64,000 nt of DNA. Origin: Fidelibacterota bacterium. Lineage in GTDB: Bacteria > Fidelibacterota > Marinisomatia > Marinisomatales > TCS55. Location: contig DTTO01000053.1 of assembly GCA_012964665.1 (NCBI GenBank), forward strand, positions 1 to 64,000, written 5' to 3'. The translations under genes and the position numbers were made by a program. Below the pieces are notes generated by a model. The model was given only the letters and a program-made list of their open reading frames with translations. It was not told the origin of the DNA and made no database searches. The number at the start of each line of letters is the position of its first letter. Within the stretch, counting starts at the first letter, position 1. Below are positions 44,443-49,956 of the stretch, in pieces.

Positions 44443-46017
44443 TTAAGCTAACTCATTCTTGTGTTCAACACCAACATGTTCAATTTCTTTCTGGCCATTT
44501 TTTGTGGTTAAAAAACGAAATTCATCACGGGCAATTTCCTGATTTCCCTCAATAATGATATAAGTAAAGTTTTGCCACATTAGCCCACGTAAGGCTTTTT
44601 TATTATCTTTAAGAAAACGGGCAATCTCAGGATGAAGTTCCAATTTGAGCTTTAAACTGCGGTGTTTGGATTTATATCTGCGCAACCAATGGTCAATTCT
44701 CGTAAGGAGCGTTTCCCGGGACATAATGCGCCCTGAGCCGTGGCAAGTTGGACATTCTTCGCTCATGGAATCTAATAGGCTTAAACGAATTCTTTGTCGA
44801 GTCATTTCTAATAGACCGAATTCAGAAATGGGAGAAACGGCCACTTTGGCTCGATCTTTTTTTAATTCCTTACGAAGTTCATAATAAATTTTTCGCCGGT
44901 TCGCTTCTTCACGCATATCAATGAAATCTATGACAACGAGGCCAGATAAATCTCTTAAACGAAGTTGACGAGCAACCTCTTTACATGCTTCCGAATTGAT
45001 TTTAAGTGAATTTTCTTCATGGTTTTTTTTGCCAATAAAACGGCCACTATTTACATCCACAACTACCATGGCTTCTGTCTTTTCAATAATAAGATAGGCA
45101 CCGCTTTTTAGCCAAACTTTTGGCCTGAGAAGTTTATCCAGTTCTTTTTCAATCCCCATGCTTTCAAATAGGGGCTGTTTCAGTCTATAATGCTCCAGAT
45201 GACTGGCCATATTGGGTGAAACATCCTCCAAGTATCCTTGAAGCTTGCGATAAAGCTTTTTGGAATCGATTACAATTTTACTGATATCGGGGGTAAATAA
45301 ATCTCGGACTACACTAGAGGCAGTTTCTAAATCTTTATAAACCAAAGCTGCCCCTTTGGTCCGGTTACTTTTTTTTTGCAGTTTTTTCCAATTTTCAATC
45401 AAGTTAGAATAATCATTTTGAATAAGCTCTTCGCTTTTCCCTTCAGCAACGGTACGAACAATGACACCCACTCCCTTCTTTTTCATGGAGGAAACAATTT
45501 TCTTTAACCGACGCCGTTCATATTTATCCCATATTTTTTTAGATATGCCAATATAATTGACGTTAGGGACTAGAACCAGTAATCGTCCAGGTAGCGCAAT
45601 TTCTGTTGTGACACGGGGGCCTTTCCCAGCAAATGCTTCCTTAATTACCTGAACAAATATATCCTGTCCGGATTTTAATTCAACATTGATGTCATCCCGA
45701 AATTTTCGCCGATTTTTTTTGGCGCCATTTTTACTATTTTTTTGCTTGGATGAACGACGGTCTTCGTCATCTATATCTGCCAGGTAGGCAGAATTTTCTA
45801 TTTCAGAGAAAGGGAGGAATGCATTGATATCATAACCGATATCAACAAAGGCAGCCTGCATGCCGGGTAGGACGTTCTCAACCTGTCCTTTATAAATGTT
45901 TCCCACCATGCGCTGGCTTTCCTGCTTCTCGACATACACTTCAACAAGTGTCCCATCTTCAACAATGGCAATTCGAGATTCCCCCATACTTTCGCTGATA
46001 AAAATCTCATTTTTCAT
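44443..46017 (-). CDS. rng: Ribonuclease E/G
   Basis: S1 domain IYKGQVENVLPGMQAAFVDIGYDINAFLPFSEI, LVVIDFIDMREEANRRKI, CPTCHGSGR. Start MKNEIFISE at 46017. Confidence 0.93.
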   Translation of the reverse strand: MKNEIFISESMGESRIAIVEDGTLVEVYVEKQESQRMVGNIYKGQVENVLPGMQAAFVDIGYDINAFLPFSEIENSAYLADIDDEDRRSSKQKNSKNGAKKNRRKFRDDINVELKSGQDIFVQVIKEAFAGKGPRVTTEIALPGRLLVLVPNVNYIGISKKIWDKYERRRLKKIVSSMKKKGVGVIVRTVAEGKSEELIQNDYSNLIENWKKLQKKSNRTKGAALVYKDLETASSVVRDLFTPDISKIVIDSKKLYRKLQGYLEDVSPNMASHLEHYRLKQPLFESMGIEKELDKLLRPKVWLKSGAYLIIEKTEAMVVVDVNSGRFIGKKNHEENSLKINSEACKEVARQLRLRDLSGLVVIDFIDMREEANRRKIYYELRKELKKDRAKVAVSPISEFGLLEMTRQRIRLSLLDSMSEECPTCHGSGRIMSRETLLTRIDHWLRRYKSKHRSLKLKLELHPEIARFLKDNKKALRGLMWQNFTYIIIEGNQEIARDEFRFLTTKNGQKEIEHVGVEHKNELA

Positions 46018-46329
46018 ATCCTTACTCCAAAGATTTACCAACTATGGGCTATTTTTATTTTGGATTGGAGATGAAGGGAAGGAAGCATTCGGCCCTTCAG
46101 CCGAGATAGAATTCCACAGAATGAATCAATTTAATCTTCTGAAGGTGGAAAAATTTTTGCAACTATTTTCGATAGGTCTAAAATCAGACCGAAAAAACTT
46201 TTTGGACACGCACCTTCAATTCATCTACATCCAATGAAGAAAATACATAGTGTAGTCCAACTGACCAAGAAATATAACAGATTGATAATAAGTTTGGCTT
46301 CAATTCGATTTTACTATTAATTTAGATCA

Positions 46330-46381
46330 GTCGTGATTTGCGCCCTATTTGCCGCGACATAAAAAAATGGTGCTAAAAAGG
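46330..46381 (+). ncRNA. SAM-II/SAM-V-type S-adenosylmethionine riboswitch aptamer
   Basis: GUCGUGAUUUGCGCCCUAUUUGCCGCGACAUAAAAAAAUGGUGCUAAAAAGG. P1 = 46330-46334 with 46354-46358; conserved GAUUU at 46335-46339; GC 46351-52 pairs with GC 46372-73; CC 46344-45 pairs with GG 46380-81. 3' core GCUAAAAAGG matches the SAM-II core as remembered from the metX/env-12 aptamer. Confidence 0.85.
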
Positions 46382-46413
46382 TTTTCAGCCCCGAAATAGC
46401 ATCGGGGCTTTTT
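46368..46413 (+). promoter_or_regulatory. Riboswitch expression platform: antiterminator/terminator switch for metH
   Basis: Terminator AGCCCCGA(46387-94)/UCGGGGCU(46402-09)+U-run. Alternative hairpin UGGUGCUAAAA(46368-78)/UUUUCAGCCCCG(46382-93), one mismatch and one bulge, consumes both the aptamer 3' core and the terminator 5' arm. Confidence 0.8.
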
Positions 46414-46416
46414 GTT

Positions 46417-49400
46417 ATGAACAGTATTACAGAAATATTTAAAAAACGGATCCTGGTGCTGGACGGTGCCATGGGAACCATGGTACAGTCATACAATTTG
46501 TCTGAGGTAGATTTCCGTGGTGAGCGCTTTGTATCGCATTCAAATGATTTGAAAGGTAACAATGATATTCTGTGCCTTACCCGTCCTGATGTGATAGCTG
46601 AAATTCACCAAGCTTATTTTGATGCAGGTGCAGATATTATTGAAACCAATACTTTTAACGCCAACTCTATTTCCCAGTTAGATTATGCCGCGGAAGACCT
46701 AGCCTATGAGATCAATCTAGAAGCAGCAAAGATTGCTAAAACCGTAGCAAAAAAATACACTGACAAATCGCGTTTTGTAGCCGGTGCAATAGGGCCAACT
46801 AACCGCACTGCTTCCCTTAGTCCCGATGTCAATAATCCGGGATTTCGAAATATTTCCTTTGATGAATTAAAAGATGCTTATTTTGACCAGGCAAAGGGAC
46901 TTTTTGATGGAGGTGTTGACCTTTTTCTCATTGAAACGGTATTTGATACATTGAATTGTAAAGCTGCCTTGTTTGCGGTGCAGGAACTGTTGGAAAATAA
47001 GGGAGCAGATATTCCTGTGCTTGTTTCCGGAACCATTACCGATGCCAGCGGACGTACTCTCTCGGGACAAACAGTGGAGGCATTCTGGTATTCGGTTTGT
47101 CACGCTAATCTCACGGCTATAGGGCTTAACTGTGCACTAGGTGCAGAACAAATCCGTCCTTGGCTGGATGAATTATCATCTGTAGCAAATACCTATGCAT
47201 TTGTCTATCCCAATGCGGGGCTTCCCAATGAATTTGGTGAATATGATGAAACGCCGGAAAAAATGGCCAATATTATTCGAGAATTTGCAGAAAGTGGACT
47301 AGTAAACCTTGTTGGTGGTTGCTGTGGTACAACACCAAGCCATATCAAGGCGATTGCAGAAGCAGTGGATGGGATAAATCCAAGAAAAATTCCGATTATT
47401 GAGCCATTAACTAAATTAAGTGGACTCGAGCCAGTTACCATCCGACCAGATAGCAATTTCGTGAATGTGGGAGAGCGAACCAATGTGACGGGTTCGGCCC
47501 GTTTCCAAAGTCTGATCAAGGAAGATAATTACGAGGAAGCCTTGTCGGTAGCCCGGCAACAGATCGAGAATGGCGCTCAAATAATTGATGTAAACATGGA
47601 TGAAGGACTTTTGGATTCGGAACAAGCCATGGAAACTTTTCTGCGGCTGATTGCTTCCGAGCCGGATATTGCCAAAGTACCTGTCATGGTGGACTCCTCC
47701 AAGTGGACTGTGCTGGAAACAGGGCTGAAGAACCTGCAGGGAAAAGGCATTGTCAATTCTATTTCTATGAAAGAGGGTGAGGGTGAATTTATTCGCCAAG
47801 CCAAAATCATCAAGAATTATGGTGCTGCCGTGATCGTAATGGCCTTTGATAAAAAAGGTCAAGCAGATACTTATGATCGGAAAGTTGATATTTGTACAAG
47901 GGCTTATCATATTTTAACAAAAAAGGTTGGATTTTCACCGGAAGATATCATTTTTGATCCGAATATTTTTGCCGTAGCCACTGGCATCGAAGAACACAAC
48001 GAATACGGTAAAGCATTTATTGATGCAGCCAAAACGATCAAAGAAACATTACCAGGAGTTCATATCAGTGGTGGTGTAAGTAATCTTTCTTTTTCCTTTC
48101 GGGGAAATAGCGGTGTCCGTGAAGCTATGCATTCTGCATTTTTATATCATGCAATTCAGGCAGGGATGGATATGGGAATTGTTAACGCCGGACAACTTAC
48201 TATTTACGATGAAATTGCACCTGAGTTAAAAGAACGAGTAGAAGATGTTATCTTTAATCGTAGGAATGATGCCACAGAAAGACTGGTCGAAATTGCAGAA
48301 GGATTCAGGGGTGTTAAAAAAACGCAAGAAAAAGATTTAACTTGGCGACAAAATGCTGTAGAAGAACGATTAAGTCATGCTCTGGTGAAAGGTATCACCG
48401 ATTTTGTTATTGAGGACACGGAAGAAGCTCGAAAACAATATAGTCGTCCAATTGAGGTAATTGAAGGGCCCCTGATGGATGGGATGAACGTGGTGGGAGA
48501 TTTATTTGGTACGGGAAAAATGTTTTTGCCTCAGGTGGTAAAATCCGCACGGGTGATGAAAAAAGCAGTTGCCCATCTTATTCCATTTATTGATAAAGAA
48601 AAAGATGAATTGGGTCTTACCGATAAATCCAACGGTAAAATTGTCATGGCAACCGTAAAGGGGGACGTCCATGACATAGGGAAAAATATTGTGGGTGTGG
48701 TACTTGGTTGTAATGGCTATGATGTGATTGACTTGGGGGTAATGGTCCCATCTGAAAAAATATTATCTACCGCCCAGGACATAGGTGCTGATATTATCGG
48801 TCTTTCAGGGCTGATTACACCTAGTTTGGATGAAATGATTCACGTGGCCAGTGAAATGGAACGCCTAAAATTTGATATTCCTCTGCTCATTGGTGGTGCC
48901 ACCACCAGTCGCACGCATACTGCTGTAAAAATCGAAGAAAATTATACTGGGCCTACGGTTCATGTGATCGATGCATCCCGGGCTGTGGGTGTGGTAAGCA
49001 AGCTCTTCAATGAAGATGAAAAAGCAGATTTTGTGGATGGTATTCGGAAAGATTTCGAACAGATACGTGTTACTAGAGCCCAAAAGACTGCTACTAAAAC
49101 GTTATCCCTTGATGATGCAAGAAAACGGAAGTTTGTAGTTGATTGGGATAGTTCCCAGACTCTAAAACCCAAGTTGCAGGGCATAAAAGTATTTGAGGAT
49201 TATCTTTTGGATGAACTGGTAGATTATATTGACTGGTCACCCTTTTTTCATGCCTGGGAGTTAAAAGGGGTCTATCCCAAAATATTATCCAACAAAAAGT
49301 ACGGAGAGGAAGCCCAAAAACTTATAGATGATGGTCAGGGTTTATTGCAGCGGATCGTAGGAGAAAAATTATTGACTGCCAAGGCTGTCATTGGTATTTA

Positions 49401-49956
49401 CCCTGCACATGCGGAAAATGAAACGGTTTTTTCAGAAGGCGTTGAATTCAATTTTTCGCGCCAGCGGGTAGATAAGGGTAGAAATCAGCCCAATTACAGT
49501 CTGGCGGACTTTATTGCACCAAAAAATGATTTTCTAGGAATGTTTGCCGTAACTACCGGTCATGGACTGGAAGCAATTGTAAAAGAATTTGAAGATCAAA
49601 ACGATGATTATAACGCCATCATGGCCAAAGTATTGGCGGATCGTTTAGTGGAGGCCTTAGCGGAAAGGATGCACGAACGGGTCCGGAAGGAATTCTGGGG
49701 ATATGCTTCTGATGAACAAATGAGTAATGAAGAATTAATCAGAGAAAAATATAAGGGTATACGCCCAGCGCCGGGTTACCCGTCTTGCCCTAGCCATAAA
49801 GAAAAAGATAAGATTTGGTCATTGCTGGAAGTGGCAAAGAATACGAGCATTACCTTAACAGAAACCCGGGCCATGTACCCAGCTGCCTCAGTATGCGGGT
49901 GGTATTTTTCCCACCCAGAATCACGCTATTTTTCTGTGAGCGATATTGGTTTATAA
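46417..49956 (+). CDS. metH: Cobalamin-dependent methionine synthase
   Basis: [48 protein letters not shown]12 site [30 protein letters not shown]-terminal AdoMet activation domain. Confidence 0.98.

Follow-up and report, generated by a model that had tools for sequence, protein, structure and literature searches.

The metH gene of a Candidatus Marinimicrobia genome is preceded by a short RNA leader that is probably a SAM-II riboswitch, one that would turn metH off by premature transcription termination and whose antiterminator would form between the SAM-binding core of the aptamer and the apical loop of the terminator. The window, by which we mean the whole 64,000-nucleotide stretch of DNA that was analysed, is part of a 1.6-Mb draft genome, and the leader is shared before metH across the order and in related families; there are reasonable grounds for regarding it as one of a class of SAM-II attenuators, extending through the phylum, whose terminators carry the complement of the SAM-binding strand in their own apical loop. 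The family of the aptamer, the terminator, the conservation of the leader, the coupled changes between core and loop, and the overlap of the core-loop helix with both P2 and the terminator are all computed from the genomes, and the coordinates of the individual elements are listed in Table 1.

Table 1. Elements of the metH leader and the adjoining gene, with positions in the window.
Feature	Position	Strand	Basis
Putative promoter, -10/-7-like element TAATTTAG (TAATTTTG in several relatives)	46318..46325	+	Composition upstream of P1
SAM-II aptamer, P1 stem (46330-46335/46353-46358) and loop	46330..46358	+	RF00521 match; P1 pairing in relatives
P1-loop strand, 5' partner in P2	46343..46352	+	
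Pseudoknot P2 3' strand GCUAAAAAGG, conserved SAM-pocket strand (predicted)	46372..46381	+	P2 pairing; family match
Antiterminator 5' strand UGGUGCUA, sharing 46372-46375 with the P2 3' strand	46368..46375	+	Covariation; own-versus-swapped energies
Antiterminator 3' strand UAGCAUCG, within the terminator loop and first 3'-arm bases	46397..46404	+	Covariation, energies, folding
Intrinsic terminator hairpin, 8 bp, 7-nt loop, -14.0 kcal/mol	46387..46409	+	Sequence, folding, conserved position
U-tract UUUUUGUU, reaching the start codon	46409..46416	+	Sequence; equal layout in relatives
metH, cobalamin-dependent methionine synthase, 1179 aa (putative controlled gene)	46417..49956	+	NF007024, TIGR02082

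A full-length match to the SAM_alpha covariance model (RF00521; 34.3 bits, E 2.9e-6) covers positions 46320-46397, and the aptamer before metH belongs to the SAM-II family. Its score is 1.7 bits under the RF00521 gathering cut-off of 36; an Rfam scan of the window at the gathering threshold returned no match and a permissive run returned this one, which is also the sole SAM_alpha match in the window's own genome at E < 0.01. The model matches 37 of the 40 genomes in the family (14 of the 40 above the gathering score) and 92 of the 130 in the order, with additional families of the class also represented. Among 24 relatives 96.5% of P1 cells and 98.2% of P2 cells in the alignment are paired, the P2 pairs being mostly invariant, and P1 and P2 taken together with the GCUAAA core reach 97.4%, with little covariation because most pairs do not vary. 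An earlier note on this DNA had proposed a SAM-binding class of aptamer upstream of metH, and the family match and the pairing in relatives bear this out, with SAM-II as the predicted class. The P2 loop strand in the window carries an extra U (UAUUUGC, 46348-46350), all 23 aligned relatives having one U fewer; this residue may account for the shortfall against the gathering score, and it could weaken or tune SAM binding. Directly 3' of the aptamer is a methionine/SAM gene, as expected of SAM-II: the metH ORF is full length and scores above the cut-off for both NF007024 (1997 bits) and TIGR02082 (1732 bits). Divergent from it, at 44443-46041 on the minus strand, is a gene for an Rne/Rng-family ribonuclease (TIGR00757, 491 bits).

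Between the aptamer and the gene, where an attenuator should have its GC-rich stem and U-tract, sits the intrinsic terminator that had been described previously, AGCCCCGA-AAUAGCA-UCGGGGCU, with all of its eight pairs, the UUUUGUU that follows and the ATG at 46417. A scan for terminator-like patterns performs no better than chance (seven sites found against 7.2 expected, in 8 kb), and we have therefore relied on conservation as evidence for the terminator: a GC-rich hairpin followed by a U-run occurs at the matching position before metH in 85 distinct leaders of the phylum. Almost every metH leader follows a common plan, in which an aptamer ending in GCUAAA-AGG is succeeded, after 3 to about 20 nt of spacer, by the GC-rich hairpin, the U-run and the AUG; in nearly all of them the terminator ends shortly before the metH ATG, and the stem lies 4-10 nt from the AUG in most. 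The terminator helix itself gives no covariation signal in an alignment (A1) that comprises 24 leaders from the family, since species differ in the length of the stem and the register of the loop, and the plain minimum free energy of the leader is unexceptional (z -1.1).

The proximity of the hairpin to the start codon raises the question of whether its main or additional effect is to keep ribosomes from loading on read-through mRNA, which we consider unlikely. In favour of this, the hairpin stops 7 nt short of the AUG, terminators lying no more than 10 nt from a start codon have been named as a 'dual' class (Barrick and Breaker 2007), and the well-studied SAM-II examples act on translation (PMC10907184); against this, the stem is followed throughout by a U-tract for which translational control has no need, the AUG is more than 10 nt away in several relatives, and there is no Shine-Dalgarno sequence here. 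A G-rich stretch in the 3' arm had been put forward for that role, a suggestion that has to be withdrawn since the G-run is not conserved as G (CCGGC, UCGAGGU and AAGGGCU in relatives), and Shine-Dalgarno motifs are barely enriched in the window as a whole (11 of 54 ORFs, versus 6 of 54 in the control). The translational SAM-II/SAM-V type, with a Shine-Dalgarno sequence in the P2 3' strand no more than about 15 nt from the AUG, was also rejected; the metH AUG begins 36 nt past the end of P2, with the terminator in between. Translational repression by the hairpin on top of termination is nonetheless a possible refinement of the attenuation that we favour.

The evidence for the antiterminator comes from the terminator loops. 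In the relatives these read AAUAGCA, UUAGC, CUAGCAC, AUAGCA or UUUAGC, which are complements of the aptamer's GGUGCUA/GCUAA, and the two sides match in pairs such as GUUGCUA:UAGCAAC, GAUGCUA:UAGCAUC, GAGCUAA:UUAGCUC and GGUGCUA:UAGCACC. UAGC is present in the loops of 43 of 72 riboswitch-linked terminators and of none of 11 unrelated strong terminators at the same loci, a background limited to the loci examined. In alignment A1 the helix of 46369-46375 with 46397-46403 was scored against 500 shuffles: 94.6% of its cells are paired (88.4% shuffled), with eight cells changed on both sides (2.4 shuffled), nine further pair types (6.2 shuffled) and a covariation score of 0.251 (0.136 shuffled), a value that none of the 500 shuffles reached, and slid registers of the helix fail, with 17-54% paired. 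Because GCUAA is near-invariant in the relatives, presumably for SAM binding, this covariation rests on the three flanking pairs.

An alignment-free comparison of the 85 distinct leaders gives the same picture, in that the core pairs with its own loop at -8.26 kcal/mol, compared to -6.94 for loops swapped between leaders and -3.65 for shuffled ones, and none of 20,000 permutations was as low as the true pairing. When each of the 39 genera is represented by a single leader, no more than 0.0002 of the loop swaps equal the true value; with one per family the test is marginal, 0.034 of swaps being as good. As long as the 3' arm has yet to emerge, the lowest energy belongs to the core-loop fold in 74 of the 85 leaders, versus 23.6 with shuffled loops. 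The 11 in which it is not the minimum include a leader designated L105 and the genus of L096, L097 and L103 (g31), which keeps aptamer, terminator and metH and has loops (UCUCAAU, UCUACAU) in which the complement to the core is lost. The core-loop helix, with its coupled changes, supplies the mutually exclusive antiterminator that attenuation calls for.

In the earlier note the antiterminator was likewise built on the SAM-binding strand, and that choice of strand was right; the partner was taken to be the 5' arm of the terminator, and here we find instead the loop and the beginning of the 3' arm. In that version the core strand pairs with UUUU-C-AGCCCC (46382-46393) and buries the terminator 5' arm, an arrangement that we regard as highly improbable as the conserved switch. 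Such a hairpin (46368-46393) can indeed be drawn, it is found also in L024, whose spacer is near-identical, and when growing chains were folded from 46330, with the pseudoknot ignored, it was favoured at chain ends 46391-46400, before the core-loop helix (46402-46406) and the terminator (from 46408). It is weak, however, at -3.4 kcal/mol with a U-C mismatch (46371/46390) and a bulged C46386, and it is not conserved: in A1 58.1% of its cells are paired, one position is unpaired in all but one of the 24 relatives, and covariation is absent. Nor is the core any better matched to its own 5' arm than to others, with -2.64 kcal/mol versus -2.52 swapped and -2.99 shuffled in the 85 leaders, and with 0.68 of swaps matching the true value at one leader per genus (39 genera). 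We have therefore discarded it as the switch on the grounds of pairing, covariation and background-level energy, and in this species it may form transiently as an intermediate.

The conserved SAM-II aptamer, terminator and leader before metH make the terminator-based OFF logic that was originally suggested the best reading, and the following sequence of events is proposed with the core-loop helix as antiterminator. An A/T-rich, -10-like element stands out in the positional composition 6-12 nt upstream of P1 in the metH leaders of the phylum, which would place the start of transcription at about 46328-46330. For SAM-II generally, it has been noted that transcription possibly starts just a few nucleotides 5' of P1 (Corbino 2005, PMC1273637). 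A start site downstream of 46330, which would have spoken against the proposal, is not indicated, the -10-like element being 5' of P1 across the phylum. Without SAM, UGGUGCUA would be free to pair with UAGCAUCG once this has emerged, and the pairing would delay or block the terminator, so that RNA polymerase continues into metH. In the presence of SAM, GCUAAAAAGG would be held in the P2 pseudoknot, leaving the loop free, the 8-bp hairpin would close, and transcription would halt in the U-tract directly before the AUG.

The antiterminator 3' strand shares 46402-46404 with the terminator 3' arm, and on geometric grounds the full core-loop helix and the terminator should be mutually exclusive, because no nucleotides are left for bridging. 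At equilibrium the terminator (-14.0 kcal/mol) beats both the core-loop helix alone (-5.7) and the whole antiterminator fold (-9.4) in the window, so that read-through without SAM would have to be kinetic, with the loop captured while about five nucleotides of the 3' arm are still to come. We infer SAM binding, termination, the start site and kinetic control alike from sequence comparison and folding. That the terminator is constitutive, with SAM having little effect on metH and the core-loop complementarity having some other role or being a functionless inheritance, is most improbable, since without switching it would be difficult to account for the coupled changes in core flanks and loop and for the conserved aptamer immediately upstream, even though the terminator is the most stable fold and the terminator downstream of the Sinorhizobium meliloti metA SAM-II switch was not predicted to respond to SAM (PMC9373788).

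SAM-II-like aptamers are also present elsewhere in the phylum at loci without metH, including L038 (at 1400-1590 and about 10670), L042, L046, L047, L109, L113, L114, L118, L119 and L120. These are often tandem, with a SAM_alpha-like aptamer and terminator followed by an aptamer resembling the SAM-II long-loop family (RF01726, 33-41 bits, below the gathering score of 44); SAM-V had been suspected for the tandem elements, and the Rfam match was to SAM-II long-loop instead. Downstream are short hypothetical genes, with a possible AAA ATPase at L109 (weak, below-cut-off Pfam matches); no methionine-like gene follows these aptamers, and four of five scanned proteins have no Pfam match. At two of the non-metH loci, L038 (G038:C5:255171) and L121 (G153:C40:2139), the leader and the start of the downstream gene are alike in genomes from two separate families, a resemblance that points to either a mobile element or shared contamination.

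If the proposed wiring is correct, a single strand of about 8 nt serves both as ligand pocket and as antiterminator, and the entire device, from start site to AUG, fits within about 88 nt. It would be an example of a terminator loop, rather than a separate antiterminator segment, reading the state of the aptamer, and it bears on how kinetic control operates in the shortest transcriptional riboswitches. For this uncultured marine phylum, the assignment of a putative SAM switch to metH appears to be new; the literature searched, which covers few subscription journals, holds no paper joining Marinimicrobia or SAR406 with SAM-II. Relative to known SAM-II attenuators the novelty is in the connection of loop and core, the aptamer family and the terminator platform having been known before. 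The earlier opinion that a terminator is unusual for SAM-II is not upheld by the literature: putative intrinsic terminators were described in many SAM-II leaders in 2005 (Corbino 2005, PMC1273637), others downstream of SAM-II were reported in 2007, and the S. meliloti metZ switch was described as terminating in an experimental study (Scheuer 2022, PMC9373788).

The S. meliloti metZ switch (PMC9373788) resembles the metH leader in its aptamer fold, P1/P2 layout and GCUAAA core, and likewise in having a methionine gene, a downstream terminator and OFF logic, the last being a prediction here; it differs in that in the metH leader the aptamer core is predicted to find its antiterminator partner in the terminator loop. 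A set of 63 distinct terminator-bearing leaders of the SAM-II type, nearly all of them alphaproteobacterial, shows core-loop pairing close to background (-4.56 kcal/mol versus -3.99 shuffled), so that the wiring is characteristic of this phylum and not of SAM-II in general. A few Rhizobiaceae leaders (such as L133, L161 and L162, from Hoeflea and another member of the family) are exceptions in which the loop complements the aptamer strand (AAGUCGC:GCGACUU, with GUCGC:GCGAC), possibly by convergence. The metX SAM-II RNA from the Sargasso Sea metagenome (PDB 2QWY) shares the aptamer class and the SAM pocket strand, whereas it hides a ribosome-binding site in P2 and acts on translation (PMC10907184); in the metH leader a terminator lies between P2 and the AUG. 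In the guanidine-IV riboswitch, whose aptamer is different, the terminator loop also takes part in the switch, and the logic is the inverse of that proposed here: guanidine promotes the loop pairing and read-through (ON), whereas in the metH leader the ligand-free RNA would pair the loop and SAM would release it (OFF).
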